Source: Pirellulales bacterium
Lineage (GTDB): Bacteria > Planctomycetota > Planctomycetia > Pirellulales > S012-138
Direction of reading: 5' to 3'
Length of the DNA stretch: 35,779 nt
Assembly: GCA_028066245.1 (NCBI GenBank)
Contig: JALCBR010000049.1
Location: 1-35,779 of the forward strand
The position numbers and the translations under genes were made by a program. Of this stretch, positions 5,066-29,689 are shown piece by piece; positions within the stretch are counted from its first letter, which is position 1, and each line of letters begins with the position of its first letter. The notes under the pieces were generated by a model that saw only the letters and a program-made list of their open reading frames with translations, was not told the origin of the DNA and made no database searches.

Positions 5066-6580
5066 ATGAGGTTGGCCGCGAAACTTGTCGTCGCGTTCGT
5101 GCTGGGCATCATGCTGCTCACCGCCGTCTACGGCTATTTGGCCGTGGAGCGCGAGATTGCCATGTTGGAAGATGACATGCGGAGGGATGCAAACTGGTAT
5201 GCCGGGTTCTTGATGAGGGCGGTTGCCGCGTCGGGACGTTTCCGAGATGACGAGATCGCCCAAACACTCGCTGACGTGGAAAGCTATTTGGACGCGACCA
5301 CCGAAAGTCACGTGTTTGACGCTCACTGGAAGCCGTTATCCCAACAGGGTCAAGGCAATTCGGCAACCTTGAGCTTCGGTTCGAGCAACTCCCAGGGCGA
5401 GCCTGAGCTCCCGCATGCGATTTGGACGGACTCCGCCGGGGTCGACAAGATTACCTACTACTACCCGGCGAATTTCACATCAGTTTCTCCGGGCGTGTTT
5501 GAATTAACCGCCTCACGAGCGGAGATGAATGACTACACCAGCGAGACGATCTATCGAACCGTGGGGTTGATGGCTGGGATGGCTCTCGTGGGCGGCCTGT
5601 TGATGGCGTTGCTAGGCGTGACGCAGGTAGGTAAACCCTTGGAGCAACTGCTCGCTAAGACTCGTAGAGTGGCCTCGGGAGATCTTTCCGATCCGGTTGA
5701 ACTTCGGGGTTTCGACGAGCTCTCGGAATTGGCTGACTCACTCAACTTGATGTGCGTTCGGCTACAGGAATCGCAAGATGAAGCCCACAAGGAAGCGCAA
5801 TCTCGCATCGAAGCCTTGGAACAACTCCGCCACGCAGATCGCCTGAAAACGGTTGGCCGCTTAGCGGCCGGCATGGCACATGAACTAGGGACGCCACTGT
5901 CGGTTGTTTCGGGACGAGCTAGCTTGATCGCCTCGGGGAAACTTGCCGCGGAAGATGTGGAAAAAAGCGCAGAGACCATCAAGTCTGAATCGGACCGCAT
6001 GGCCAAGACGATTCGACAGTTACTCGACTTTGCTCGTCACAGCCATTCACAACGCGCCCGCGCAGATCTGCGACACGTGATTCAACAGACCGTCGACCTG
6101 CTGCAGCCGTTGGCCGGCAAGCGGAACATCTCCCTGGTATCTCAGTTGTCGGACGTTGCCGCAGAAGCCAGCTTTGATGTCGGACAGGTGCAACAGGTGT
6201 TGACCAACTTGATCGTCAACGCAATGCAATCGATGTCCGAAGCTGGCACCGTGCAGGTGGAGTTAGACCGCATCAACTGCGCGCGGCCGACGGGTGAAGA
6301 ACACGATGGCCGACCTCCTCACGAATCTGAGCCGGCGAACTATTTCCGCATTCAAGTAATCGACCAGGGGAGCGGCATCTCCGCCGAAGACCTGCCACAG
6401 CTTTTTGAGCCCTTCTTCACCACGAAATCGCAAGGACAAGGAACTGGCTTGGGCCTTTCCATCTCGTACGGTATCGTGCATGAACACGGCGGTTGGATTG
6501 ATGTCCAGAGCACCTTGGGCAAGGGAAGCACTTTCGCCGTGCATCTGCCTGCGCACGACCAGGAGCCAGCAGCCCCATGA
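5066..6580 (+). CDS. Membrane-bound sensor histidine kinase
   Basis: About 504 residues. Order of parts: membrane segment 1 (about 5-27), a periplasmic sensing region of about 130 residues without a recognised fold, membrane segment 2 (about 166-190), a HAMP linker (KPLEQLLAKTRRVASGDL onward), a HisKA dimerisation helix with AHELGTPL and phospho-accepting His272, then an HATPase domain. In the latter the N box is NLIVNAMQ, G1 is DQGSGI, the F box is EPFFTTK and G2 is GQGTGLGLS. Its stop overlaps the start of the next gene (ATGA), indicating translational coupling to the NtrC-type regulator, its evident partner. The ATG at 5066 has no SD site. The signal sensed cannot be read from the sequence; the HELGTPL H-box resembles NtrB/ZraS-like kinases. 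Confidence 0.93.
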   Translation: MRLAAKLVVAFVLGIMLLTAVYGYLAVEREIAMLEDDMRRDANWYAGFLMRAVAASGRFRDDEIAQTLADVESYLDATTESHVFDAHWKPLSQQGQGNSATLSFGSSNSQGEPELPHAIWTDSAGVDKITYYYPANFTSVSPGVFELTASRAEMNDYTSETIYRTVGLMAGMALVGGLLMALLGVTQVGKPLEQLLAKTRRVASGDLSDPVELRGFDELSELADSLNLMCVRLQESQDEAHKEAQSRIEALEQLRHADRLKTVGRLAAGMAHELGTPLSVVSGRASLIASGKLAAEDVEKSAETIKSESDRMAKTIRQLLDFARHSHSQRARADLRHVIQQTVDLLQPLAGKRNISLVSQLSDVAAEASFDVGQVQQVLTNLIVNAMQSMSEAGTVQVELDRINCARPTGEEHDGRPPHESEPANYFRIQVIDQGSGISAEDLPQLFEPFFTTKSQGQGTGLGLSISYGIVHEHGGWIDVQSTLGKGSTFAVHLPAHDQEPAAP

Positions 6581-7929
6581 CCCATGGCCGGGTGCTCGTT
6601 GTTGATGACGAAGCCAGCATGTGCGAGCTGCTGGAAGCGGATCTACGGTTGCGGGGGTTTGACGTGGCCTGGCGGACATCCGCGGAAGAAGCTTTCACCT
6701 TGCTGCGGGGAGAGTCCTTCGATTGTGTTGTCACGGACTTGAACATGCCCGGCGTCAACGGGATCGAGCTTTGCGAGCGAATTGTCGCCCATCGCCCAGA
6801 TGTCCCTGTGATCGTGATGACCGCGTTTGGCAGCATGGAGACAGCTATCGCCGCTATTCGGGCAGGCGCCTATGATTTTGTCACCAAGCCGTTGGAGACG
6901 CAAATGCTTGCGCTCACGCTGGAGCGCTCTGTCCGGCACCGGCGCTTACAGGAAGAAGTCAAGTTGCTCTCGGAGGTGGTCAAGCAGGCTCGTCAATTCG
7001 GCGATATCCTGGGTGAAAGCCTGCCGATGCAGCAGCTCTTTGACCAACTCGCGCGTGTGGCTGAGTCCGAAGCGGCAGTCCTGATCACCGGCGAAAGCGG
7101 ATCCGGCAAGGAGCTTGTTGCCCAGGCAATTCACAGTCAAAGCTCTCGGAGAGAGAAACCGTTTGTGGCGGTTAATTGTGCCGCTCTCCCGGGAAACTTG
7201 TTGGAGAGCGAGCTCTTTGGCCACGTGGAAGGCGCTTTCACGGATGCTCGGGAAGCCCGCAAGGGGCTGTTCCAACAGGCTCAATGCGGAACTCTGTTCT
7301 TGGATGAAGTTGGCGAGCTGCCATTGGCCATGCAGCCTAAGTTGCTGCGAGCGTTGGAAGAAAACACCATCCGACCAATTGGCAGCGACCAGGAAACTCC
7401 CATTGATGTCCGCATCTTGACGGCAACCAACCGCGACCTGGAGTCAGCGGTCGAAGAGAGTCGCTTTCGGCAAGACCTCTACTATCGGATCAATGTCATC
7501 CAGTTGGCGATTCCACCGCTGAGAGCGCGTGGTACGGATATCTTATTACTCGCACAGCACTTTGTGGAGGGTTTCGCCGCGAAAAGTCAACGACAGGTCA
7601 CGGGACTTTCTGAACCGGTTGCCGAACGACTCCTGAACTATTCGTGGCCAGGCAATGTGCGAGAGCTTCGCAACGTGATTGAACGAGCCGTTGCCTTGAC
7701 CGGAACCGAGAAACTCTCCGTCGAAGACTTACCCGAAAAGATCCAAGAGCATCGAGGGTCACACATCGTACTGGGCGGAGAAAACCCGGCAGAATTGCCC
7801 AGACTGGAAGACGTTGAGCAGAGATACATCCGGCATGTTATGGAAGCCGCCGGCGGCAACAAAACCCTGGCGGCCAAGATCCTTGGTGTTGACCGCAAGA
7901 CGCTCCGTCGCAAGCTCAAAGAGGATTGA
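6577..7929 (+). CDS. NtrC-family sigma-54-dependent response regulator
   Basis: A 450-residue three-domain regulator. The receiver domain (1-120) has acidic DDE at 10-12, phospho-acceptor Asp54, Thr82 and Lys104. The AAA+ domain (about 143-380) has Walker A GESGSGKE (172-179) and Walker B LFLDE (240-244). The C-terminal Fis-type helix-turn-helix occupies about 411-448 and ends DRKTLRRKLKED. It should oligomerise on phosphorylation by the upstream kinase and remodel sigma-54 RNA polymerase. The sigma-54-contacting loop reads GAFTDA (219-224) instead of the consensus GAFTGA, a variant known in natural activators. Co-expressed with the kinase through a 4-bp overlap. Targets are unknown; no convincing -24/-12 promoter was found in the intergenic regions here. 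Confidence 0.95.
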   Translation: MTHGRVLVVDDEASMCELLEADLRLRGFDVAWRTSAEEAFTLLRGESFDCVVTDLNMPGVNGIELCERIVAHRPDVPVIVMTAFGSMETAIAAIRAGAYDFVTKPLETQMLALTLERSVRHRRLQEEVKLLSEVVKQARQFGDILGESLPMQQLFDQLARVAESEAAVLITGESGSGKELVAQAIHSQSSRREKPFVAVNCAALPGNLLESELFGHVEGAFTDAREARKGLFQQAQCGTLFLDEVGELPLAMQPKLLRALEENTIRPIGSDQETPIDVRILTATNRDLESAVEESRFRQDLYYRINVIQLAIPPLRARGTDILLLAQHFVEGFAAKSQRQVTGLSEPVAERLLNYSWPGNVRELRNVIERAVALTGTEKLSVEDLPEKIQEHRGSHIVLGGENPAELPRLEDVEQRYIRHVMEAAGGNKTLAAKILGVDRKTLRRKLKED

Positions 7930-7996
7930 GCCAGAGGGATGCCTAGCGCTCGTATGAGGTTCGCGGCCGTTGCTCGATCAATCTTGTTGCGTGCGG

Positions 7997-8860
7997 TTAA
8001 CGCCCTGCGGTGATTAATCCCTCTTCAGGACTGCTGGCCGTGGCATAGAGTTTCTTGGGAATACGGCCTGCAAGATACGCCAAACGGCCGGCTGCCGTCG
8101 CGTAACGCATCGCGTATGCCATCTGAAGGGGATCTTGTGCGTGGGCGATGCCCGTATTCAAGAGCACTCCGTCAACGCCCAACTCCATCGCAAGAGTCAC
8201 ATCGCTGGCAGTGCCCACACCGGCGTCCACAATCACCGGGTAATGCGGATCGCCTTCTTTCAAGTACTCCAGACAGATGCGAATGTTGTTGGGGTTTAAG
8301 ATGCCCTGCCCAGAGCCGATCGGACTTCCCGCTGGCATGACACTGGTTGCCCCGGCATCTTTCAGCCGGCGAGCGGTGACGGGATCATCTGTTGTATAGC
8401 ACAAGACCTGGAAGCCCTCTTTGACGAGGATCTCCGTCGCTTTCAAAGTTTCCACTGGATCCGGCAGCAGAGTCTTCTTGTCTGCCAGAACTTCCAACTT
8501 GACCCAATCTGCACCTGGGTTGTCCAGCCCGCGTAGGATTTCACGGCCAAGTCGCGCTACGCGGATCGCGTCATCAGTGCTGAAACATCCGGCAGTATTG
8601 GGCAACAGTGTGTAGCGATCGGTGTCGATGAAGTCGAGCAGGTTGTTGCCGTCCGCGTCGATCAACCGTTCGCGCCGAACGGCCACCGTGATGCAGTCCG
8701 TTCCCGAAGCTTCCAGGGACCGTGCCATCAAATCGTAGTTGGCATACTTCCCGGTTCCGACGATTAACCGGCTGGAAAGCGTATGCGTTCCCAGGGCGAA
8801 TGAACCATCCGCAGGAAGAGCGTCAACGCGGTTTGTCGAGGAGACGGCGGCCTCGCTCAC
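7997..8860 (-). CDS. thiG: Thiazole synthase ThiG
   Basis: Forms the thiazole phosphate moiety of thiamine from 1-deoxy-D-xylulose 5-phosphate, dehydroglycine/iminoglycine and ThiS thiocarboxylate. Characteristic blocks: [36 protein letters not shown] (the Lys of VKLEV is the Schiff-base residue), [23 protein letters not shown] and [14 protein letters not shown]. The GTG at 8860 is chosen because GGAGG lies 5 nt upstream of it (plus-strand CCTCC at 8866-8870). This gives 287 residues with about 30 residues more than usual before the first core strand. An in-frame TTG at 8935 is less likely. It lies directly downstream of thiS. ThiF, ThiH/ThiO and ThiC are not in the window. Confidence 0.95.
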
Positions 8861-8865
8861 TGATG

Positions 8866-8870
8866 CCTCC
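8866..8870 (-). promoter_or_regulatory. Ribosome binding site deciding the thiG start
   Basis: On the minus strand GGAGG precedes the GTG at 8860 with 5 nt spacing. This favours that start over the in-frame TTG at 8935 and GTG at 8872. Confidence 0.65.
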
Positions 8871-8958
8871 ACCGGACGGTTTGTCCGTGATGCTTCCAGG
8901 AAATGATAAATGCGAATGCTCGAACTGACATACAACCCGCCGAGCGGACTTGTGCGGC

Positions 8959-9159
8959 TCAGCCCCCGCCGACAAGCGTCACAACTTCCATTGTGTCGCC
9001 GCCCGACAAAACGGTCGCAGCGTGATCCTCTCGTGGAACCAAGTCGCGATTCACCTCTACGGCCACGCGGCGCGAATCTAACTGCAATTCTTGCAGCAAA
9101 CCCGCGATTGTGGTGTCGGGCGCAACATCACGGAACTCGCCATTGACTTTAATTCTCAC
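8959..9159 (-). CDS. thiS: Sulfur carrier protein ThiS
   Basis: Ubiquitin-like sulfur carrier that is thiocarboxylated at its C-terminal Gly and delivers sulfur to ThiG. From the GTG at 9159 the product is exactly 66 residues, the usual ThiS length. It begins VRIKVNGEF, has [12 protein letters not shown] in the middle and ends TLVGGG, providing the required C-terminal Gly-Gly. The longer open frame extending to 9642 is not real: its first two thirds lie antisense to another gene. The stop codon is about 100 bp before the thiG GTG, same strand, so the two genes form an operon. No SD site is seen. Confidence 0.92.
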
Positions 9160-9412
9160 GGACAGCGGTCGATCCAACTTGAACGAAGTGAAGACGACAG
9201 AGTCGCATTCTAAGGAAATCTCACCATCTGAGAAAGCCGGCGAAAGAGCCGGTTTGCGATCCGCCGTGTCACGACGCGCTTCGCGCAAAGAAGTTTCTGT
9301 AAGATCGCCTGATCGATACAATGCAGGTTCGATCGAAGAATTCAACTCTGGCCGCCTGGGGTAGCGGCGTTTGGCCATCAACGAGCATTCGATCTTTGTC
9401 AGGAGAGAGATA
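9160..9412. promoter_or_regulatory. Divergent intergenic region thiS / coiled-coil protein
   Basis: This 253-bp region must hold the promoters for thiSG (minus) and the exported coiled-coil gene (plus). Two small inverted repeats are visible: TCTCA/TGAGA at 9219-9233 and CCGGC/GCCGG at 9237-9252. I looked for a TPP riboswitch on the minus strand and found no convincing core. Confidence 0.4.
9401..9408 (+). promoter_or_regulatory. Strong ribosome binding site
   Basis: AGGAGAGA lies 4-7 nt before the ATG at 9413. It fixes that start against an in-frame alternative at 9371. Confidence 0.75.
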
Positions 9413-10072
9413 ATGAATGCATGCAGTCGGCTCACCTTCGCAGGCGGGATTTCCGCATTAGCTGTTTTTTTGATGGTTGGCGCAACGGTAGCCGGCCACG
9501 GACAGGGGCAACAACAGGTTCCTCTACCTGACGTTTCTGACCGCGTGACCAAGCTCGAACAACGAGTTACCTGGCTTGAAGAGCAGCTTGGACGGCTATG
9601 TGTAGAAGACGCAGCCCTTGCGCAAATTAACGCGGAACACAAGCTATCGATTGCAGAAGATCGGTTGGCTCAGAGTGAGCGGTTGGCCGCGCAGGGATAC
9701 ATCTCCGACGTTCAGCTTCAAGCAGACCAATTGGCGGTCGAGATCGCCCGACGTGAGTTGCAACTCACAAAATCCCAGTCACAAAGTGACCGTGAGGCCG
9801 CTCGACTGGCCGTCCTGAATGCGGAAGCCGCGCTGAGTCAAGCCTTGCTTCGCTATGACCATACGCAGCGATTGCAGACCAAGGGGTACGTTTCAGAGGT
9901 CGAAGCAGCGCGCGATAAGGCGGACGTTGCCAGGGCGGAGAAGGTCCTGGCTGCCGCGAAGCTCAAGCTGGAGATGTACTCGGACCAAAAGCAGCAAGGC
10001 TCAAATCCGCCCGGAGCTTCTACCAATGGAAGTAATTCAGGCAGCACGCGCAGCGACCGAGGGGATCAATAG
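9413..10072 (+). CDS. Exported coiled-coil protein resembling a membrane-fusion-protein hairpin
   Basis: 219 residues. An N-terminal signal peptide (hydrophobic about 8-28, ending TVAGHGQ) is followed by a coiled coil (about 41-62). Two similar helical segments follow: [19 protein letters not shown] at about 88-106 and [19 protein letters not shown] at about 151-169, each followed by a heptad-rich Ala/Leu/Arg helix. The K/QGY(I/V)S turn is what joins the two helices of the alpha-hairpin in HlyD/AcrA-type adaptors. However, the lipoyl and beta-barrel domains of those adaptors are absent, and the C-terminus is a Ser/Gly/Asn-rich tail. No pump or TolC gene is adjacent. It may be a periplasmic structural protein; function unknown. 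Confidence 0.75.
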
Positions 10073-10149
10073 CTCTTAGCAGGTTGATGTGCACACGCAC
10101 GTCCAACCTAGACACAGATTTCTCACAATTGTGATCTTAATTATCGGCT

Positions 10150-13100
10150 ATGGATTTCGAGCTTCTCAGTTCCGTGCTCGATTCCCAGCAAGTTGCCGAC
10201 GAGCTGCTGCCAAATTGGGGAATTCGCGATGCCCGTCGCGGCCGCGAGAATCTCCGTCTCATGCAGCAACTGGGCGTTCCCTTGGACTTATTGTCCGAGA
10301 TGTCTGTGCAGCTTGCCGCTCATCTTCCGGCTTGCAGCGATGCCGACATGGCGCTCAACAATCTGGAGATGTTTGTGGCGCATGCCCGCAACCCATTGAG
10401 CTTGGCGGCGCTCTTTGAACGCGACCCGACAGCTCTGCCGGAGTTGCTCAAGATTTTTTCCACCAGCCAGTACCTGGCGGGAATCCTGATTCATGACTCT
10501 GGCAGCTACGACCTCTTGCGTCTGACCGAGGGTCGTCCGATTGCCCGAGAAGTCCTGATCGACGAACTCTGCGCGGAGACAGCAAGTCTGGATGATTCCA
10601 CCGACATCATGCGAGCGCTACGACGCTTCAAACGACGGGAAACGCTACGGATTTCCTATGGCGACCTGATCTTAGATCAACACTTGAATGTCGTCACCGA
10701 ACAGATTTCGTACGTGGCGGATGCCTTGTTGGAAGCGGCTTTCCGGGCTGCCGCGCGAAGGATGGGGCGGAAACTGTTCGGCACAAGTGCTGATCTTGCT
10801 TCAAGCCGTGACTTCTATCCACCAATGGCGATTCTAGCCCTCGGAAAGTTAGGCGGTCGTGAACTGAACTACTCGAGCGATATTGATCTGATCTACGTCT
10901 ATGATGACAGGGTCGCCACCAGCGAGAAACGGCCCTTAAACCAACCGTTCTTTGAGAGGCTAGCCCAAGAAACAACCAAGCTGCTCGCCGAGTCGACGGA
11001 GCTTGGTCAAGTTTATCGGGTGGATCTACGGTTGAGGCCAGATGGGACGCAAAGCTCCATCGCACCGTCCATTGCTGACGCGTTGCGGTACTACGACCTC
11101 AAAGGACGGACCTGGGAACGCCAGGCGTACGTGAAAGCTCGCGTGGCTGCAGGTGATGTCTCCGCAGGCAACAGGCTCCTCAACGAGTTACAACCCTGGG
11201 TTTATCAACGCTACCTGGCCGCGCCGGACATCGCCGGCGTCAAAGCGCTCAAGCGGCGAATCGAACGCCGGTCCCACCAGGACGGAGTAAGCAATCGCGA
11301 CGTCAAGACAGGACACGGCGGTATTCGTGACATCGAATTTTGTGTGCAGTTTCTGCAACTCCTCAACGGTGGTGAGCAGTCTGTTGTGCGTACAGGCAAC
11401 ACGCTCGATGCCATTCACCGACTTGGTGAAGCCGGCTGCCTGACAGACCAAGAGCGAGGATTGCTCGAAGAGAATTATCGATTCTTGCGACGGATCGAAC
11501 ATCGCTTGCAACTCCTGTTTGACTTGCAGACGCACGAGTTGCCGCAAAGTGAGTCCGAGTTGCGCAAGCTTGCCATCCGGATGGGGTTCTCCGGTGAACA
11601 CGCGCTCACCGAATTTCGAGAACAGTTATCCCGAACGACAAAACTCAATCGGCGCATTCTTGACCACCTCTTGCACGAATCATTTGGACAAGATGACGGC
11701 GTGGCGCCAGAGACGGACCTGATCCTTGATCCATCGCCTGAAGAAACTGCCGTTCATGAGATCTTGGCACCGTATGGCTTCCACGATACGACGTTGGCCT
11801 ACAAGAATTTGATGGAACTGGCAGAGGAAAAGATTCGATTCCTGTCCACACGACGTTGCCGGCATTTCCTGGCATCTGTCGCGCCGGCACTCTTGGACGC
11901 GATCCGTCAAACGCCCGACCCGGACGGAACGTTGACCAATTTGGACCGTGTCACAAACTCGCTTGGTGGCAAGGCAACGCTTTGGGAGCTCTTCAACGCG
12001 AATCCCGCCGCAATGCGGCTGTGCGTCGAATTGTGCTCAATTAGTGGCTTCCTCACGGGCGTTCTGATCAGCCAGCCCGGCATGCTGGATGAATTGATGG
12101 ACAGCCTGATGCTTGACACGTTGCCGACGCGCCAAGAGATGGATACTTCGCTGCATGAACTATGTCGCGGAGCTGAAGATATCGACCCCATTCTGCACAG
12201 CTTTCGCAATAGCTATTTGCTCAGGATTGGCGCCAGGGACATCTTGGGCAAGGAGGACTTGATTGCGACGACGTCTGCGCTGACGGACCTGGCCGAATGT
12301 GTCGTCAGCGTTGTTGCGAAGAACGAATACGATCGCCTTGTCGCGAAGTTTGGCGAGCCGCGATTTTCGAGTAGCTTGGATGCCGAGGACGTGAATTCTG
12401 AAGATGAACAAGATGGAAAAAACGCGGCTACGCTTGAACAAACATCACGTTGGGCCATCTTAGCCCTGGGAAAGTTTGGTGGACGAGAGCTGACATACCA
12501 CAGTGACTTGGATTTGGTCTTCATCTATGAGGCCGACGGAAAGACCACCGGCAGCGGTCGCGGCGAGCCCACGACAAACTCGCACTTCTTCAGCGAATTG
12601 GCTTCGCGGATCACGAAGGCGATTTCACACCTGGGCCCCTGGGGACGACTGTACGAAGTTGATGCTCGGTTGCGCCCAACGGGCAGAAGCGGTGCGCTGG
12701 CCACGGCGTTGGAAGAATTCACTCGTTACTTCGAGACGAGCCAAGGGCAACTCTGGGAGCGGCAAGCTATGTGCAAAGCTCGCCCGGTCTACGTATCACC
12801 TAGTTTTGGTGAGGCAGTACAACAGGCGATCGGGCACGCCGTCTATCAGCGCGACCTCACAGACGAAGATGTTGCTGAGATATGCAGTATGCGCCGCCGA
12901 TTGGAAAACAACCTGAGTTTCGGCAACATCAAGCGCGGACCAGGCGGTGTCGCCGACCACGAGTTTCTCGCCCAAATGTTGCGATTACGTCACGTTCAAG
13001 CGACTGACGAAACCACGAACGCTGACATGCGATCCCCAACCACGTTGGTTGCTTTAGCGGCCATGCATACCGCTGGACACATCTCCGATGATGATTGGCG

Positions 13101-13329: not shown

Positions 13330-14235
13330 TCAAGCTTCTAGAAATGATTCCAAATCTGCTGGATTGACCGCAGGTTCGCCTGGTGAGACGTGATCAAGCT
13401 TTCCGTCTTTCAACCAGGTCTCCAATTTGTCAACCTGGCTGAACAGGTGGTCGAAGGAATCGACAATGAACAACAGTGGCTGGTAGTGGTCGATTTCAAA
13501 GTATTGATTGACGACCCATTCCATCTGGATTGGATACCGCTGCACCGCTGGCGAAGTCAAAGAGTGTTCAAGCTCGCCTAATGAACTGAGAAGTCCGCTG
13601 CCGTATGCCTTGAGGCCATCTTTCTCGCGAATCAGCCCGAACTCGACGGTGAACCAGAAGAACCGCGCCATCGCCTTGATGTTGTTTTCCAAGCAACGGA
13701 TATGTTCAGCGTCACCTCCGGCCACCCCGGCAGCTCGCTCAGCGGCAAAACGGGCCACCTCGCCAAAGCGGACCAGGACGTCTGAAAAAACACGATCTGT
13801 GTGCATCGGCACGTGCCCGGCAACATCATGGAAGATGTCAGGTTCCGGAAGGTAGTCCAGGGCCTGCCCATCGCGAATGGTGATGGTGGTGGGAAAGCTG
13901 CGCTGCCGTAAGCAATCGAAGAACAAAAACGCAGGCACATAGCCCGAGACGGCTTTAGCCTTGAATCCACTCAGCGGCGCCAGAAAACGGTTAATGTCAT
14001 CCAGCTTCGGAATTGCATCCCGTTTTAGATGCAAGACTTCCAGCCCATGCATGAAACGCGCGTTAGCGAACTGCTCCCATTTAGGCAGGATGCGATCGTA
14101 CAAACATCGCCATGTTTCTTGGTTTTCATCGCTGTAGAGATCGTACGGTTGATCAATATACAGTTGGCCGTCTTGTTGAGCCTGTTCGATGAAAGCTGCT
14201 TTTGTTGTCGTCAAACCAGAGGCCACTGTCGACAT
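13330..14235 (-). CDS. phhA: Phenylalanine 4-monooxygenase (aromatic amino acid hydroxylase)
   Basis: Iron- and pterin-dependent enzyme converting L-phenylalanine to L-tyrosine. At 301 residues it is the compact bacterial form without a regulatory ACT domain. The 2-His-1-carboxylate iron site is readable: His136 and His141 in DIFHDVAGHVPM, and Glu198 in WFTVEFGLI. Other family blocks are YLPEPD, the GYVPAFLFFDCL region and YGSGLLSSLGELEHSL. ATG 14235 gives a normal N-terminus. Its pathway partner fumarylacetoacetase is about 14 kb away in the same window and orientation. A 10-bp palindrome (14281-14290) and two hairpins lie upstream and may be regulatory. Confidence 0.95.
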   Translation of the reverse strand: MSTVASGLTTTKAAFIEQAQQDGQLYIDQPYDLYSDENQETWRCLYDRILPKWEQFANARFMHGLEVLHLKRDAIPKLDDINRFLAPLSGFKAKAVSGYVPAFLFFDCLRQRSFPTTITIRDGQALDYLPEPDIFHDVAGHVPMHTDRVFSDVLVRFGEVARFAAERAAGVAGGDAEHIRCLENNIKAMARFFWFTVEFGLIREKDGLKAYGSGLLSSLGELEHSLTSPAVQRYPIQMEWVVNQYFEIDHYQPLLFIVDSFDHLFSQVDKLETWLKDGKLDHVSPGEPAVNPADLESFLEA

Positions 14236-17344: not shown

Positions 17345-17947
17345 ATGGTTTTATCGCAGAACCCTGCAGTTCGCCGCGACAACGGGCCAAAGAGGCACAG
17401 CGCTGGAAGTACGACCACAGGCACACTGGTGGGTTTCCTTACAGTTGTCGATCATGAGCAAGTTGGGTTGCTGGGCGGATACTTGATCCTAAATTCCACG
17501 GCACGCCCCGTTGAGTTTCATTGCTCCGCGCCGCTGAAGGCCAATCGCGCTCAGGAGATTCTCTACGGTCCAACGTTGCGACCATATCTCTGCGGCGAAT
17601 TGATTGGCGCAACCCTTTTGAACAAGGCGAAGAACCGGCCGGATTGGGTTTGCACGGATTGTCACGATGTCCTGACAGCTCGATCGAGTGTTTCACTTCC
17701 GATGGCTCTCATTCTCAACGAAGACGCCCTTGCAAATCCGATGCAGGATGCGCGGCCAGCCAGCCCACCAATGCTTCAGGTCATCAACTTCCCCGAGCAG
17801 GCATTCGCGGTTTCTCGCGAGTTCTCTGCCGATGGTTCACTTGTCACAGCTAAGATGAAGACACTCGCTGATTCGTTTGATCTTCTGGAACCATTTGAAC
17901 GGATTCGGCTGGCAATGGAAGAAGCGCAGCGCGGAGCGCAACGATAA
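17345..17947 (+). CDS. Unknown protein coupled to a SNF2 helicase
   Basis: About 200 residues, not recognised. The central part (TGTLVGFLTVVDHEQVGLLG, then GGYLILNSTARPVEFHC) looks like a compact beta-rich domain. It is followed by LYGPTLRPYLCGELIGATLL and a CxxC knuckle in DWVCTDCHDVL that could bind a metal, although no second CxxC is present. The C-terminus is acidic/helical. The ATG at 17345 has no clear SD site, so a later start is possible; the likely domain begins around residue 26. Only 13 bp separate it from the SNF2 start, and the SD site of SNF2 overlaps its stop codon, so the two are almost certainly co-translated. Confidence 0.75.
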   Translation: MVLSQNPAVRRDNGPKRHSAGSTTTGTLVGFLTVVDHEQVGLLGGYLILNSTARPVEFHCSAPLKANRAQEILYGPTLRPYLCGELIGATLLNKAKNRPDWVCTDCHDVLTARSSVSLPMALILNEDALANPMQDARPASPPMLQVINFPEQAFAVSREFSADGSLVTAKMKTLADSFDLLEPFERIRLAMEEAQRGAQR

Positions 17948-17952
17948 GGGGG
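17946..17952 (+). promoter_or_regulatory. Ribosome binding site deciding the SNF2 start
   Basis: AAGGGGG overlaps the stop of the preceding gene and lies 8 nt before the in-frame TTG at 17961. It supports that TTG over the frame opening at 17877. Confidence 0.6.
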
Positions 17953-17960
17953 ATCTGCGA

Positions 17961-19814
17961 TTGGGAAACAGCCCCACACCATTTCGCACCGATGGCGAAA
18001 GTGATTTCCATCCAACATCGCCGCTGCCTGCAAGTGGCGTTGGACAGGCAGAGACCAGTGGCTTGCCCACCCATGTCGGCACAAACTCGTTTGACCTGTC
18101 GGTTGCAGCTCCAGCTTTGGAAACGCTCTTGCCAGACGGTCCCCGCCAACATCCCGTGGTTGTCCGCCATGCCAAACTAAAGGTTGCGCCCCCCCAAACG
18201 GTTTCCCTGGCATTCCCAACTCCCCTTGTGCGAACGCAAGGGTTTGTTTTCTCCGAGAATGCTGCCAACACCATCCTCAGTTCTCCATCCCAGTCCAACG
18301 CAAGCGCGGAGCTTGCTCGTGGGGATCAGCCGCGCACATCAGAGAGACGAATCCGCAAAACGCGCAGCCACGGTCGAATCGTGCCTCCGAACGAGATGCT
18401 CAAGCTGGAAGATCGACTCCTGTGTCTGCTTGAGCCGCCAGTGGACACATGGATGCAACGGTCAGCTTTGACCTTTACGCAAAAGCCGTTCGCTCACCAA
18501 TGGGATGGGGTTGCCTTCCTTTTTCCCCGGCAACAGGCGATCTTGGCGGACGAAATGGGGCTTGGCAAAACAATGCAGGCAATCACGACGATCCGACTGT
18601 TGCTCCACGCCGGCCGGCTGAGCACTATCTTGCTCATTTGTCCCAAGCCGCTGGTCACCAACTGGCAGCAAGAATTTTCTCGCTGGGCCCCGGAAATCCC
18701 AGTCGCAGTCGTTGAGGGCGCCGCAAACCGGCGCGCCTGGCGATGGAACGCGTCCATGCCGGTGAAAATCGCCAATTATGAATTGCTGCATCGTGACGCG
18801 GCACTCTTGGGCGAGAGCAGCTCCGCCTATGACTTGGTCGTCATTGATGAAGCTCAACGGATCAAGAACCGCACCAGCACGATCTCACAACTAGTGCGAA
18901 ACATCCCCCGCAGGCGTTCCTGGGCTTTGACAGGCACTCCGGTGGAAAACAGCCCCAATGATCTGGTCGGAATCTTTGAGTTCCTCTCACCCGGATACCT
19001 GGATGAAGGGATGCAACTTTCCCGATTGAGCAGCCTGGCTGCGGATCACGTGTTGCGCCGTACCAAGAGCGATGTACAGATTGACTTGCCTCCCAAGCTG
19101 TTTCGCGACGTTGCCTTGCCACTTTCGCCACAGCAGGCAGAAACCTATCGCATCGCGGAAGAAGATGGCGCGCTTCGACTCACAGAGCTGGGACACGAAG
19201 TGACCATCCAACACGTGTTTGAGCTTGTCCTCCGCCTCAAGCAGATCTGCAACTTTGACCCTGCCACTGAAACAAGTAGCAAGCTCGAACGCCTGGAGGC
19301 GGACCTGGAGGAGATTGCAGAAAGCGGGCAAAAAGCCATCGTCTTTAGCCAATGGGTTGAAACATTACAGCGATTGTCGCGGAACTTGCAGCGGTTCGGA
19401 CCGCTGGAGTATCACGGGCGCATCCCATCACGACATCGTGACGCGATCTTGAACCGCTTTCGCAATGACCCCAACGCCCATGTGCTGCTGATGAGTTATG
19501 GAGCTGGCGGCGTTGGACTTAATTTGCAGTTCACCCAGTATGTCTTTCTGTTTGATCGCTGGTGGAATCCGGCGGTTGAAGATCAAGCCATCAATCGGGC
19601 GCACCGGATTGGCGCAGAATCTCCTGTGACCATAGTCCGTTTCTTGGCATCCGGGACGATTGAAGAACGCATTGACGAAGTGTTGCAACAAAAACGCGAT
19701 CTCTTCGATGCGATCCTCTCTCATACGCGGCCGCCAGATGAATTAGGGTTAAGTCGAGAGGAAATCTTTGGGCTTGTCGGACTTGAGCAGCGAACTGCGC
19801 GCAACGCAGCCTAA
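17961..19814 (+). CDS. SNF2/HepA-family DEAD-like helicase
   Basis: About 617 residues. Swi2/Snf2-type double-stranded-DNA translocase. Helicase lobe 1 has ILADEMGLGKT (GLGKT 200-204), NWQQEFSRWAP, IDEAQRIKN (DEAQ 296-299, where DEAH is commonest) and LTGTPVENS. Lobe 2 has KAIVFSQW, LLMSYGAGGVGLNLQ, FDRWWNPAVEDQAINRAHRIG and the C-terminal RFLASGTIEERI. The first 165 residues are low-complexity and Pro/Ser-rich with no domain seen. The start is the TTG at 17961, with AAGGGGG 8 nt upstream. Bacterial members act in RNA-polymerase recycling (RapA), DNA repair or phage defence. The only partner here is the unknown protein upstream; no methylase, nuclease or phospholipase accompanies it. Confidence 0.92.
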   Translation: MGNSPTPFRTDGESDFHPTSPLPASGVGQAETSGLPTHVGTNSFDLSVAAPALETLLPDGPRQHPVVVRHAKLKVAPPQTVSLAFPTPLVRTQGFVFSENAANTILSSPSQSNASAELARGDQPRTSERRIRKTRSHGRIVPPNEMLKLEDRLLCLLEPPVDTWMQRSALTFTQKPFAHQWDGVAFLFPRQQAILADEMGLGKTMQAITTIRLLLHAGRLSTILLICPKPLVTNWQQEFSRWAPEIPVAVVEGAANRRAWRWNASMPVKIANYELLHRDAALLGESSSAYDLVVIDEAQRIKNRTSTISQLVRNIPRRRSWALTGTPVENSPNDLVGIFEFLSPGYLDEGMQLSRLSSLAADHVLRRTKSDVQIDLPPKLFRDVALPLSPQQAETYRIAEEDGALRLTELGHEVTIQHVFELVLRLKQICNFDPATETSSKLERLEADLEEIAESGQKAIVFSQWVETLQRLSRNLQRFGPLEYHGRIPSRHRDAILNRFRNDPNAHVLLMSYGAGGVGLNLQFTQYVFLFDRWWNPAVEDQAINRAHRIGAESPVTIVRFLASGTIEERIDEVLQQKRDLFDAILSHTRPPDELGLSREEIFGLVGLEQRTARNAA

Positions 19815-20231
19815 TAATCATTGGTTGTCCAACTGGCTGTGAGAATCTGCGGAGCCATGGCGAAACAACGCGCGCAACTTTATTGTTGAGAAGCAAGAAC
19901 TGAGTTCCGCCGGACGGCCAGCGCGAAGCTGAATGGCATCACAGTCCAAAAAAGCAAGTTGCAAAACCTGCCGCCAACGGTCTGGTCAGCGCTGCCGTCC
20001 AACCCTACGGTCGACCACCTCCGATATCTCCTGCCAACACTATCGGCGATTCCCATCGCTTCATGGCGCGTGATAAAATTGCCGCAACGTTCCCTGCGCG
20101 CCCTGCTCTCATTGCCTTGGGCTGCATTCAACAAGGGAAAACCTTTCGGAAAAACCACTCGCGCGTGGCAAGTATTTGGATGCCTTGTCGCCTAATTTTC
20201 GTCCGTTTGTTTTGTCCTGCATGCATTGGAA

Positions 20232-20250
20232 TGCGCACAAACTGTGCGCA
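20232..20250. repeat. Perfect 7-bp inverted repeat
   Basis: TGCGCAC, loop AAACT, GTGCGCA. There is no T-run on either side, so it does not look like a terminator. Confidence 0.5.
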
Positions 20251-20426
20251 GATGAACGCTGACAACCCGGTCCCGACGTTGCCGGAGCGCGGGAGGAACA
20301 CGCTTCTTGTTCGCTCGTCATGAGTTCTGAACGGCACAATTCCGGCGCCTTAATCGCTTGCCAACAAATCTAATTTTACTGATGTGCCAGTGGAACAACG
20401 GTGATGTCCGACGAAAGATGCCTCCT

Positions 20427-20453
20427 GTAAGGTGTTTTGAAATAACACTTTAC
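20427..20453. repeat. 10-bp inverted repeat (hairpin)
   Basis: GTAAGGTGTT pairs with AACACTTTAC across a 7-nt loop, with one G-T pair. It lies about 160 bp before the zincin start, and another inverted repeat follows 2 bp later. Confidence 0.5.
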
Positions 20454-20455
20454 GA

Positions 20456-20475
20456 TGTTCACTTGAAACTGAACA
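20456..20475. repeat. 6-bp inverted repeat
   Basis: TGTTCA pairs with TGAACA across CTTGAAAC. It directly follows the hairpin at 20427-20453, so the two may form a tandem structured element. Confidence 0.4.
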
Positions 20476-20609
20476 GAAGCCGCGCCTAGGATGAGATTGT
20501 GCAGGGAAAGCCCCCGTTAGGGATGACTTCATGATGAATTCCAAGCCTCGTTTTCGATCGCTCGCATCCACAAGCGAACGTTGCGCGTGGTCGAGATGCG
20601 TCTCGGTTC

Positions 20610-21320
20610 ATGATGGCGAAGAAGCAGCAGCAATCTTGGAAGCAGAAAGCCCACAGCCGCAGTCCGGCGGCCGTGGCCAATCTGCGCTCCAAGCATCGCG
20701 CTGCCAGGGCGTTCTCACGCCACCGCGGCGCCCACGGCACGGCTCAAGCACCGTTCGTTCCCCCGGAAGACTGGTACGAGCCCGAGGGCACGCCTGGATA
20801 TCGGTTTGTGGAGCAAACACCTGGCGCCGGCTACAGACACGTGGTCACGCCAGAAGAAGTTCGCAACCGGCTGGCCCAGTTGCCTGAGAGCTTCACCGTA
20901 AGTCTGGAAGTGGTGCAATTCTCCAAGATGACCCGCAAAAAGCGGAACTATCCCTGCTATGGAATGCAATGGGGCAGCACGATCTATCTCTACCCGATTG
21001 AAACTGATCTCGTCGAACACTTCTCCAGCAAGCCCAAGCCCCAGCAATGGAATGAGGCGCGGATGTATGGTGGGCAATGGGAGCGGGACGGTGCCTGCGG
21101 TTGGAAGCTAGTTTGGTCGCTGGCAGCGGTGAAGGATTATTACCTGAACAATATCTTGATTCACGAGTTAGGGCATTTGCTGGACGAGCGAAACACCAGC
21201 TATGAAGACCGCGAGAGATACGCGGAGTGGTTCGCCGTTCGCTATGGCTATCAGATGTCACAGCGATTTGATCCGCAGAGGCGGTCACGCAAGACAGTCC
21301 GCCGCCACCACAAGCGATAG
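20610..21320 (+). CDS. Putative HExxH zinc metallopeptidase with basic tails
   Basis: 236 residues, or 235 from the second ATG at 20613. Residues 183-190 read LIHELGHL (His185, Glu186, His189), and YAEWFA follows with Glu206 as a plausible third zinc ligand. That arrangement is seen in gluzincin-like and ImmA/IrrE-type peptidases, but the rest does not match a family I know. The N-terminal 45 residues (KKQQQSWKQKAH...) and the last 16 (RRSRKTVRRHHKR) are strongly basic and probably disordered, suggesting nucleic-acid or polyanion contact. The middle contains YPCYGMQWGSTIYLYPIE, looking like beta strands. No signal peptide. It stands alone, behind the structured intergenic region. Peptidase activity is inferred from the motif only. 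Confidence 0.75.
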   Translation: MMAKKQQQSWKQKAHSRSPAAVANLRSKHRAARAFSRHRGAHGTAQAPFVPPEDWYEPEGTPGYRFVEQTPGAGYRHVVTPEEVRNRLAQLPESFTVSLEVVQFSKMTRKKRNYPCYGMQWGSTIYLYPIETDLVEHFSSKPKPQQWNEARMYGGQWERDGACGWKLVWSLAAVKDYYLNNILIHELGHLLDERNTSYEDRERYAEWFAVRYGYQMSQRFDPQRRSRKTVRRHHKR

Positions 21321-21397: not shown

Positions 21398-21433
21398 AAA
21401 AAACCCCGCCGTTCGCAGAACGAAGCGGCGGGG
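21398..21433 (-). terminator. Rho-independent terminator of hemW
   Basis: On the minus strand a GC-rich stem (CCCCGCCG at 21404-21411 pairing with CGGCGGGG at 21426-21433, extended by TTCG/CGAA with one bulged base) is followed by six T residues (plus-strand A-run 21398-21403). The orientation fits transcription coming from hemW. The plus strand has no T-run after the stem, so it would serve the zincin gene poorly. Confidence 0.78.
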
Positions 21434-21705: not shown

Positions 21706-22899
21706 TCAAATCCGCAGGACTTCGCTCCACATCTGGTCTGACAACAGCATTCCATTGCGCGTCAGGCGGATTCTGCCGCCATCGAATACTACTAACCTTA
21801 GTCGTAGCCATTGATTAAGCGAATTGCCCAACAATTCACTCGCCGTGAAGCCGGTCTTCCGTTGGAATTCACGCTGGTCGATGCCTTCGATGCGGCGGAG
21901 TCCAAGAACGAGCGTCTCTCGGGCTTTGTCATGCGCGAGGAGCGTTTCGCGCTCAGTGATTGGGGACTGGCCCGCACGGAGCCGTTTAATCCAAGTCAAT
22001 GTGCTGCGATGGTTTGTTGAGCGTTCGCCGGCGATATGCCGAGCAGCGCCAGGCCCTGCCGCAAAGTACTCGTCGCCGCTCCAATAGCCTTCATTGTGAC
22101 GACACCGATGGCCAGATCGCGCGAAATTGGAGATCTCGTAGTGCTCCAAACCACCTGCGGCAAGCCGTTCGATTGCCAACAGGTACATCTGTCGCTGTGT
22201 TTCCTCATTGATCTCATTGAGTTCAGATTTGTTAAGCCGGGACCAGAATGAAGTGCCGCGTTCATAGGTCAAGCCATAGGTTGAGACGTGGTCAGGCTCC
22301 AATTCCAACACGGCAGCCAATTCGCGTTCCCAAGCGCCGATGGTTTGGTCAGGTGTTGCGAAGATCAGGTCCAGGGAAACGGATCGTGCGAAAGTCCTGG
22401 CCAAGTTCACAGCCCGGCGAATATCGTCGCCCGTGTGATCTCGTTCCAAGGTTCTCAGCACGCCTGCATTAAAAGACTGCGCACCCAGGCTGATTCGCGT
22501 CACTCCTGCGGTGGCCAACAGCTTGGCTTTCTCAGGCGTCAAATCGACTGGGTTGACTTCCACGCTCAGTTCCCCGTCAGATGCCAGCGGGAATGCCTCT
22601 CGAACGATGGAGAACAGCTGCTCCATGGGTTTCAGAGCAAGCTGAGATGGCGTTCCACCACCAAAGAAAAGGGTATCTACTTCGTGCGAGCCGCTGATGC
22701 AGGCCAACTCTGTCGCCAACGCGTCAAGGTATGCGGGAATCAAGTCTTGCCGATTGGCGACGACCGTGAAGTTGCAATAGCCACATCGATGCGCACAAAA
22801 CGGCACATGGATGTAGGCGGCACGGGGAGCAAGTTGGGAACTCGGAGGCGCTGTAGACTCCATCCCCGCAGTCAATTGTGGCATTTCGTCCTGTGGCAT
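21706..22899 (-). CDS. hemW: HemW-type radical SAM protein (heme chaperone)
   Basis: About 397 residues. Radical-SAM protein of the family once annotated as oxygen-independent coproporphyrinogen III oxidase and now regarded mainly as the heme-transfer protein HemW. The [4Fe-4S] cluster motif is CAHRCGYC (Cys35, Cys39, Cys42, spacing CX3CX2C) within YIHVPFC. FFGGGTPSQL, EVNP, RISLGAQSFN, STYGLTYERGT and HYEISNFARSGH all match the family. The C-terminal HemW domain is present. ATG 22899 is the first start; 22884 and 22863 are in-frame alternatives. It is divergent from the mobA-like gene with only about 35 bp between starts, so the promoters overlap. An intrinsic terminator lies about 270 bp downstream. 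Confidence 0.9.
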   Translation of the reverse strand: MPQDEMPQLTAGMESTAPPSSQLAPRAAYIHVPFCAHRCGYCNFTVVANRQDLIPAYLDALATELACISGSHEVDTLFFGGGTPSQLALKPMEQLFSIVREAFPLASDGELSVEVNPVDLTPEKAKLLATAGVTRISLGAQSFNAGVLRTLERDHTGDDIRRAVNLARTFARSVSLDLIFATPDQTIGAWERELAAVLELEPDHVSTYGLTYERGTSFWSRLNKSELNEINEETQRQMYLLAIERLAAGGLEHYEISNFARSGHRCRHNEGYWSGDEYFAAGPGAARHIAGERSTNHRSTLTWIKRLRAGQSPITERETLLAHDKARETLVLGLRRIEGIDQREFQRKTGFTASELLGNSLNQWLRLRLVVFDGGRIRLTRNGMLLSDQMWSEVLRI

Positions 22900-28408: not shown

Positions 28409-29689
28409 TCAGGCTCTTGCTGGAAGCACGCACCCGCTTACGGAACCAAAGCCGACACGACATCCCTTTGCCTCGCACGACCCGCTGAGTGAAACAACAT
28501 CACCGTCGCTCAAGAATTTGCGTTGCGAACCGTCAGAAAGCTTGATCGGCTCCGCGCCGCGCCAAGTAAGCTCCAGCATGCTCCCACGAGCGGATTTCTC
28601 CGGACCACTAATCGTGCCAGATGCTAGCAAGTCCCCCGGGCGCAGGTTGCAACCGGTGATGGTGTGATGCGCGATTTGCTGAGCCATCGACCAATACAGA
28701 TAGCGAAAGTTGGAGCGACAGACGATATCTCCGCTGGACGTGCCTGCACCCTGAATCGCAACGGTCAATGGAATGTCGAAGGTCGACTGAGAACTTCCCT
28801 GCAAGTACGGAAGTGGCTCCGGATCCTGTGGAGGGCTTGCCGTGCGGAATGGTTCCAAGGCATCCAACGTCACCACCCATGGAGAAATCGACGTGGCAAA
28901 GTTCTTCGACAGGAACGGCCCGAGAGGAACATACTCCCACGTTTGAATGTCACGGGCACTCCAGTCATTAACTAAAACCAGGCCAAAAATATGATCCTCA
29001 GCACTGTGAACAGAGACGGGCTCGCCCAGCGAACTGCCAGGGCCGATGAAGAATCCCATCTCCAGCTCAAAATCGAGCGCTGCGGAAGGCCCAAATCCCG
29101 GCTTCCCGTCATCGCCTGGCTTTTTTTGACCAACAGGCCGTGTCACGTCCGTTCCATCAATGACGATCGAACTTGCACGACCGTGATAGGCGACCGGCAA
29201 GTGCAGCCAGTTTGGCTGCAGCGCGTTGTCCGCTCCGCGAATGATCGTTCCCACGTTTGTGGCGTGCTCGCGTGACGAATAAAAATCCGTGTAGTCGCCA
29301 ATGGAGGCAGGCACGCGCATCGAGACATCAGCCTGTCGCACAAGCGCGGCGCTGCGCAACTCGGCATTGTCACGCAATGTCGGGTTCTCAGCCGACAGCA
29401 ACTCCGCCGTCCGGCGCCGCACAGCTTCCCAGGCTTCGCGCCCCAGCGCCATGAAGTCATTTAAGATGGGCCGTTCCAATGGCCGGCCTTCCCGCAACTC
29501 TGGCAAGTCAAACTGCCCTCGGCGGCTCAACTCGCAAAGATCGAGCACCTGCTCACCGATGGCAACGCCGATGTGGTCTTCGCTCGCGCCAACCTGAGAG
29601 AACACACCATATGGCAGGTTTTGCAAGGGGAAGTCAGAATCCTCCGCGACAGGAACAAAGCTGCGGAGTTGGGAATCAATGACGTACAT
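28409..29689 (-). CDS. fahA: Fumarylacetoacetase
   Basis: 426 residues. Hydrolyses fumarylacetoacetate to fumarate and acetoacetate, the last step of tyrosine degradation. The active-site elements are readable: DYTDFYSSREHATNVG (metal Asp and catalytic His), ELEMGFFIG (two metal Glu), VNDWSARDIQTWEYVPLGPF (metal Asp and the downstream loop), and the C-terminal SDGDVVSLSG followed by VGFGSVSGCVLPA. The N-terminal SH3-like domain (about 1-115) is also present, so this is the full-length eukaryote-like FAH rather than a short FAH-fold hydrolase. ATG 29689 gives the normal N-terminus. Homogentisate dioxygenase and hydroxyphenylpyruvate dioxygenase are not adjacent. Confidence 0.96.
   Translation of the reverse strand: MYVIDSQLRSFVPVAEDSDFPLQNLPYGVFSQVGASEDHIGVAIGEQVLDLCELSRRGQFDLPELREGRPLERPILNDFMALGREAWEAVRRRTAELLSAENPTLRDNAELRSAALVRQADVSMRVPASIGDYTDFYSSREHATNVGTIIRGADNALQPNWLHLPVAYHGRASSIVIDGTDVTRPVGQKKPGDDGKPGFGPSAALDFELEMGFFIGPGSSLGEPVSVHSAEDHIFGLVLVNDWSARDIQTWEYVPLGPFLSKNFATSISPWVVTLDALEPFRTASPPQDPEPLPYLQGSSQSTFDIPLTVAIQGAGTSSGDIVCRSNFRYLYWSMAQQIAHHTITGCNLRPGDLLASGTISGPEKSARGSMLELTWRGAEPIKLSDGSQRKFLSDGDVVSLSGSCEAKGCRVGFGSVSGCVLPARA

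Follow-up and report, generated by a model that had tools for sequence, protein, structure and literature searches.

The question raised by this locus was what is encoded by a short reading frame that combines an HExxH motif with strongly basic ends, and where its product might act. A first-pass annotation of the window (the whole stretch of 35,779 nucleotides that was analysed) had read the frame as an orphan zincin. The frame very probably encodes a small, cytosolic, zinc-dependent protein-cutting enzyme, the activity being predicted, of an unnamed family. This is new as a family and ordinary in kind; its ligand helix is like that of ImmA/IrrE, and only a short stretch connects the second histidine to the glutamate.

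Gene, distribution and inheritance

The reading frame begins with ATG and its product starts MMAKKQQQ (Table 1). Matches to the protein were found in 26 of 392 genomes drawn from across the phylum and in 106 of 296 genomes drawn from the same order (its own genome included in both), and the motif was invariant in the alignments; the frame is therefore not a product of chance, but a real, conserved and inherited planctomycete gene. In the phylum-wide draw, 17 matches were strong (E < 1e-57, the source genome again included) and all came from the same class, while the 9 weak matches all lay outside that class. Two of the same-order genomes (G460 and G575) were represented by weak matches only. 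A further draw from the class, using a query (L013) from a different order (f5, probably Planctomycetales), returned matches in 43 of 148 genomes (37 strong, 6 weak). A search of genome contigs produced 177 relatives, and the analysis kept the best 80 of them; organisms named among the relatives were Blastopirellula marina, Lacipirellula limnantheis, Botrimarina, Adhaeretor and Aeoliella.

Table 1. Positions in the window of the zincin gene and of the parts of its product
Feature	Position	Strand	Basis or remark
Zincin gene	20610..21320	+	236 aa plus stop; open reading frame, homologues, structure models
N-terminal basic tail, residues 1–49	20610..20756	+	11 K/R, 0 D/E; low model confidence
Zincin core, residues 50–215	20757..21254	+	Model of residues 50–223; structural matches
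HELGH, residues 185–189	21162..21176	+	63/63 in A2, 10/10 in A3
Asp192, one helical turn past HExxH	21183..21185	+	D in 63/63 of A2; E in two Priestia homologues
Glu202, likely third zinc ligand	21213..21215	+	Invariant in A2 (63/63), A1 (18/18) and A3 (10/10); collagenase analogy
Ala205 and Glu206	21222..21227	+	Ala205 invariant; Glu206 replaced by D, N, I or C; collagenase analogy
C-terminal basic tail, residues 216–236, ending RRHHKR	21255..21317	+	Tail composition

The source genome (4.9 Mb) contained a single match to the protein. The gene is dispensable, since 190 of the 296 drawn same-order genomes had no match. It was mostly inherited vertically, with many absences, because the tree largely follows taxonomic families: over its 46 rows the family label changes 13 times, against a minimum of 11 and an average of 31.5 after shuffling, and none of 200 shuffles gave a number as low. 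Two of the changes concerned the window's own taxonomic family (f1), whose members may still stem from one origin. This pattern of inheritance, and the fact that 102 of the 106 same-order genomes with matches had exactly one, point to a stable cellular role. Phage origin was not indicated, as no match to the protein occurred among 50,697 phage records; of three scans of viral contigs, two found the same single relative (L136) and one found none. PADLOC likewise gave no match for the window protein that would indicate a role in defence, while L136 matched peptidase_U41 weakly (E = 0.014).

The main alignment (A2) comprised the window protein and 62 of 81 loci (61 contig loci, nearly all titled planctomycetes, plus L136), and another (A7) held 35 of the 81 loci; the near-copies and the truncated or oddly long frames omitted from both were chosen by hand. 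A1 had 18 rows, and the wider alignment, A3, had 10 rows reaching Bacillota and Betaproteobacteria through plasmid proteins of Priestia and Variovorax. Rows taken from loci in A1, together with L013 and some others in A3, stop one codon short of the final residue, with the active-site columns unaffected.

Active site and third zinc ligand

The HExxH motif that had been reported at residues 185–189 was confirmed as HELGH. His185, Glu186, Gly188, His189, Asp192, Glu202, Ala205, Trp207, Phe208 and Ala209 were conserved in all 63 rows of A2, the motif having been partially selected for, as the words used in the contig search contained HE and frames were chosen by HE[LVI]GH or HE[LVIMAF]GH; HExxH was no precondition of the phylum-wide and same-order similarity searches. 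The proposal that His185, Glu186 and His189 should be conserved among homologues thus held, and no row of A1, A2 or A3 was without HExxH. Among 55 loci that were read, only L026, a weak match (E = 7e-4), had no frame with a motif of this kind.

The third zinc ligand had been assigned to Glu206 (codon at 21225–21227), within YAEWFA (residues 204–209), and this assignment was not supported by conservation. Position 206, Glu in the window protein, was Glu in 59 and Asp in 4 of the 63 rows of A2, and Glu in 12 of 18 rows of A1 and 6 of 10 rows of A3, its substitutes across the alignments being Asp, Asn, Ile or Cys (Asn in L013, L014 and L019), whereas Glu202, one turn earlier in the same helix, did not vary. 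In the full-length AlphaFold model HExxH lies on a helix spanning residues 171–191 and Glu202 on the following helix (198–219). In clostridial collagenases, according to PMC3711286, the zinc rests above an alanine three residues past the Glu ligand, and the histidines are steadied by residues one turn past HExxH and past the Glu ligand; the spacing of ligand Glu, alanine floor and second-shell acid in these gluzincins is repeated by Glu202, Ala205 and Glu206. Since this pattern maps onto Glu202, Ala205, Asp192 and Glu206, the third ligand is likely to be Glu202, with Ala205 probably forming the floor of the zinc site and Glu206 being a probable second-shell residue and no ligand. Asp192, which was Asp in eight rows of A3 and Glu in the two Priestia homologues, is likely to be the second-shell acid for a ligand histidine. 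By the same analogy, His185 and His189 are predicted to be ligands and Glu186 the general base. With HExxH on one helix and Glu202, a ligand by analogy, on the next, the protein would belong to the Glu-zincin clan MA(E), and its single helix past HExxH fits the 'mini-Glu-zincin' as outlined in PMC3890501. The invariant residues indicate which mutants to make.

Predicted fold

The full-length AlphaFold model had a mean pLDDT of 84.5 and a pTM of 0.74. Confidence was high across the core (88–98 for the ten-residue blocks from 61 to 220), falling to 44–56 for residues 1–50 and 74–82 for the last 16 residues; a model of residues 50–223 alone reached a pLDDT of 91.3 and a pTM of 0.88. When these models were compared with solved structures by VIA-align, the first 20 rows for the full-length model and the first 26 for the core were zincin-type proteins, judged largely from their titles. 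The initial reading of the protein as a zincin was therefore supported by the HExxH motif, a confident model and structural lists led by zincins. Wss1 headed the core-only list (Z = 7.8, with 112 aligned at an rmsd of 3.9), its chains being placed first, second and fourth (Z = 7.8, 7.5 and 7.2; 103–115 aligned), while YbeY-type chains were third and fifth (Z = 7.3 and 6.8); these include AQ_1354 (Z = 7.3, rmsd = 4.2 over 114 aligned), a protein of the YbeY type. The highest Z, 7.8, is within the range of models without a clear match and can reflect merely a common arrangement; the values support a predicted fold class, not a function. The Wss1 (WLM) and YbeY cores have the zincin core in common with most of the model, as an arrangement only (Z < 8), and the zinc ligands of both families differ from those of the zincin protein. 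ImmA/IrrE chains were absent from among the rows listed in either case, an absence that proves nothing.

Other structural searches were weaker. Foldseek found nothing in the PDB at E ≤ 0.001 for either model, with no E below 0.12, and the third row for the core was YbeY (E = 0.2). Against the viral library BFVD, the full-length model again gave nothing at E ≤ 0.001; the best row was a minor capsid protein (E = 0.0087) and the eighth an IrrE-like phage protein (E = 0.34). By sequence, the window protein alone had no solved relative at E ≤ 10, and the A1 profile gave six weak matches, the best of them (E = 0.11) to a designed protein. Across the 63 family rows there was no 19-residue stretch with a hydropathy above 1.6, so the family is without a membrane span or a usual signal peptide.

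Family affiliation

The earlier statement that the middle of the protein matches nothing known was nearly right: no NCBIfam model matched it, but weak similarities were found. The sole Pfam match at E ≤ 10 was to Peptidase_M90 and scored 17.7 bits, short of the 26.2 bits of the cut-off; the match lies upstream of and across HExxH, and it recurred below threshold in 15 of the 18 A1 members (E ≤ 10, best E = 0.0013). Among PHROGs, phrog_87 ('metallo-protease') matched residues 179–215 (E = 0.0072), a second family being weaker still, and was weakly matched by 17 of the 18 members of A1 (best E = 0.0016). The window protein had no HMM match to M78 (PF06114) at E ≤ 10, and the families matched in A1 did not include M78 for any of its 18 members. 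Zincin_1 (PF06262) did not match the window protein at E ≤ 10 either, and L136 scored 15.1 bits, below its cut-off of 22.4. Literature searches on the family, a limited survey and a weak test, found no publication.

Profiles of the family were compared with alignments of M90 (A4, 16 rows), M78 (A5, 13 rows) and Zincin_1 (A6, 12 rows) from genomes of the same phylum. Paired with A2, these scored 86%, 92% and 59% respectively, and with A3, 24%, 91% and 78%, while control pairs gave 3% (M90–M78), 53% (M78–Zincin_1) and 37% (M90–Zincin_1). The stretches aligned with A2 were short (54 columns for M90, 11 for Zincin_1 and 30 for M78, the last confined around the motif), so that these scores rank relatives and leave descent unproven. 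The pattern Exx[A/C][N/D]xxA was present in all 12 of the M78 rows that hold HExxH (1 of the 13 does not), 4 of these having Cys instead of Ala three residues past the Glu. In the window helix, E202-R-Y-A205-E206-W-F-A209, positions 202, 205 and 209 fit this pattern and 206 is Glu. The distance from the second His to the Glu was 13 residues in the window protein, 13–18 in A3, 12–32 in the 12 M78 rows and 54–57 in 15 of 16 M90 rows, where the Glu used is presumably the M90 zinc ligand.

The family resembles M78 in HExxH, in a similar ligand helix (ExxA[E/N/D]xxA here), in overlapping His–Glu spacing and in its best profile–profile score, but differs in having no HMM match, a profile alignment restricted to the motif, no HTH partner among the scanned genes, and basic tails. 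The first-pass suggestion of an ImmA/IrrE-like site stood with respect to the ligand helix and the profile pair (92% against 3, 37 and 53% for the controls), and was weakened by the silence of Pfam M78 and an alignment of only 30 columns. HExxHxxD, ExxA and the weak HMM match are shared with M90 (MtfA, PF06167), but membership of M90 was rejected on the score and on the His–Glu spacing. On sequence profiles, the protein is placed in an unnamed Glu-zincin family that comes nearest to M78.

Genomic context

In the window the gene is preceded by a SNF2-type helicase gene (17877–19814) and followed, on the minus strand, by a HemN-type radical SAM gene (21706–22899), neither of which matched any of the 81 loci. 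Of the 28 other reading frames in the window, 26 had no match at the 81 loci, and those at 5066–6580 and 6577–7929 matched two loci and one respectively; function was not deduced from the window neighbours for this reason. Among the homologues, 32 of the 76 loci with at least 1 kb of downstream sequence had a PSCyt1 cytochrome-c gene on the same strand no more than 1.2 kb away; upstream, within the same distance, 26 of 75 loci had a Ser/Thr kinase gene. An FAD oxidoreductase (DAO) gene occurred near 28 loci and a glutaredoxin/DUF2064 gene near 27, both mostly on the opposite strand. Clusters of neighbours were annotated by scanning one representative each, and the representatives of these four (kinase, PSCyt1, DAO and glutaredoxin/DUF2064) found no counterpart in the window (best E = 0.39). 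The order kinase–zincin–PSCyt1 looks like an ancestral arrangement that was lost in the window. Neither of these conserved neighbours, kinase and PSCyt1, suggests a link to nucleic acid.

No XRE/DdrO-type repressor was found among the 10 window frames scanned, which included the flanking genes (3 of the 10 had no family at all), and no HTH repressor when 9 of the 12 clusters common to at least 8 loci were scanned through their representatives; of the remaining three, one was the family itself, one an antisense artefact and one lay outside the scan. Cluster C5 was dropped, being by its letters an antisense frame of the zincin gene. No DNA-repair gene was present among the scanned neighbour clusters.

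Several other features of the region were recorded. The gap of about 800 nt between the SNF2 and zincin genes (19815–20609) wholly contains only frames shorter than 100 aa, and no Rfam match to a noncoding RNA was found there or anywhere else in the window. A terminator-like hairpin followed by a T-run (21403–21426, minus strand) is placed to end the HemN-type gene; there were 6 terminator-like patterns in the scanned region against 2.6 expected. The same contig carries a biopterin-dependent aromatic amino acid hydroxylase gene (13330–14235) and a fumarylacetoacetase-type gene (28409–29689), possibly parts of phenylalanine/tyrosine breakdown. A separate gene in the source genome (G000:C52:29133–29420, L188) matched M78 (ImmA/IrrE) above the family cut-off.

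Basic tails

The Lys/Arg-rich ends noted initially were borne out as a matter of composition: residues 1–50 contain 11 K/R and 0 D/E, and residues 216–236 contain 9 K/R and 1 D/E. Across 62 rows of A2, K/R made up 27% of the N-terminal and 36% of the C-terminal regions. A net charge of at least +6 over the last 21 residues was found in 43 of 59 family frames, against 8 of 373 neighbouring frames (at least 150 aa, with a homologue in another locus), and 0 of 78 neighbour clusters had a median C-terminal charge that high. In 30 of the 63 A2 rows, RRHH occurred among the final ten residues. The feature is variable among relatives: in L010, L013 and L014, all of f5, the protein ends 8–10 residues past the conserved Gly213, compared with 23 in the window protein, and the N-terminal tail is hardly basic in L136 (3 K/R, 2 D/E) and the Priestia homologue L137 (6 K/R, 4 D/E), while being basic in L019, L021 and L138 (8–10 K/R of 29–33 residues). 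Judging from model confidence, the N-terminal tail is probably disordered; confidence in the C-terminal tail was low less markedly. These tails are the oddest feature of the protein and the sole hint to its place of action; by their composition, they may keep the protein close to DNA or RNA.

Putative function

The reading that we prefer, to which we would give an even chance as a whole, is that of a cytosolic Glu-zincin peptidase, tethered by its tails to nucleic acid or ribonucleoprotein and clipping one or a few proteins bound there. The enzyme would be a single-domain zinc peptidase of clan MA(E) with a minimal, one-helix C-terminal subdomain. Zinc would be bound by His185, His189 and Glu202, and water activated by Glu186, while Ala205 would sit beneath the metal and the ligand histidines would be steadied by Asp192 and Glu206. 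The tethered peptidase would act on its one or few bound targets, not on protein at large. Should the tails indeed anchor the enzyme to nucleic acid, they would represent a means, specific to this clade, of directing a protease. A bolder version, which we consider decidedly unlikely, is that of a planctomycete-specific protease, tethered to nucleic acid and forming a separate system, that is active in DNA–protein crosslink repair, or in the trimming of ribosomal or nucleoid proteins, and that arose separately from SprT/Wss1 by combining an ImmA-like zinc site with K/R tails.

The protein could instead be a regulatory protease resembling ImmA/IrrE, brought to DNA by its tails and cutting a single DNA-bound repressor upon a stress signal, which for IrrE is zinc; there is precedent in the cleavage of the repressor DdrO by IrrE, as given in PMC7907104. 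The similar ligand-helix motif, a His–Glu spacing within the M78 range, the top profile–profile score among the three zincin families compared and the recurrence of phrog_87 are consistent with this, but no HTH repressor was encountered among the window frames and cluster representatives scanned, the protein has no M78 HMM match and the genome has a separate M78 gene, and we consider this role unlikely. Divergence from M90 (MtfA) would explain the sub-threshold matches in 15 members, the shared HExxHxxD and ExxA, and the 86% pairing with A2; this is very improbable given the shortfall in bits, a pairing of only 24% with A3 and a Glu that in M90 lies some four times further from the second His.

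Both remaining alternatives draw on the basic tails and on the structural lists. A protease of the Wss1/SprT kind, clearing proteins crosslinked to DNA and using its tails as a DNA anchor, would agree with the three Wss1 chains near the top of the core-only list, but their Z values are tied with a YbeY-type chain and fall in the range of models without a clear match, and the scanned neighbour clusters include no DNA-repair gene; such a role is improbable. A YbeY-like RNA enzyme or ribosome-maturation factor, with a zincin fold but not a peptidase, is suggested by the YbeY-type chains in the same list, by the third Foldseek row and by tails that are ribosomal-protein-like. YbeY carries a three-histidine motif, which is missing here, and HExxH plus Glu with a conserved base is a typical peptidase zinc set, so this proposal is very doubtful.

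Distant relatives

The gene defines a vertically inherited, unnamed family of putative peptidases in Pirellulales and one other order of the class, with relatives on plasmids of Bacillota and Betaproteobacteria. This wider family includes two proteins of Priestia megaterium plasmids (WP_140457128.1 and WP_338789641.1), a Variovorax plasmid frame (L138) and L019 and L021 from the planctomycete phylum, which in A3 were 19–24% identical to the window protein (28% for Priestia by tblastn). They keep all of the active-site residues, with Glu replacing Asp192 in Priestia, but have 18 residues between the second His and the Glu instead of 13, and short C-terminal tails. The plasmid relatives are annotated as hypothetical or have no annotation.

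In two Priestia megaterium plasmids (L137:7570–8079 and L139:6734–7243) an annotated ankyrin-repeat gene directly follows the homologue, and in L136 an ankyrin-like frame, recognized by eye, lies upstream of it (6493–7110). The L136 homologue belongs to an array of small genes (5254–11565 of IMG/VR contig UViG_2883346072_000004) separated by 300-nt direct repeats, present in four copies that are 83–90% alike, and the whole resembles a cassette array of the integron type; the genes beside it look like phage portal and terminase genes. Finally, in one genome of the same class a pair of weak homologues lay near each other on one strand (G731:C24:42132–43326).
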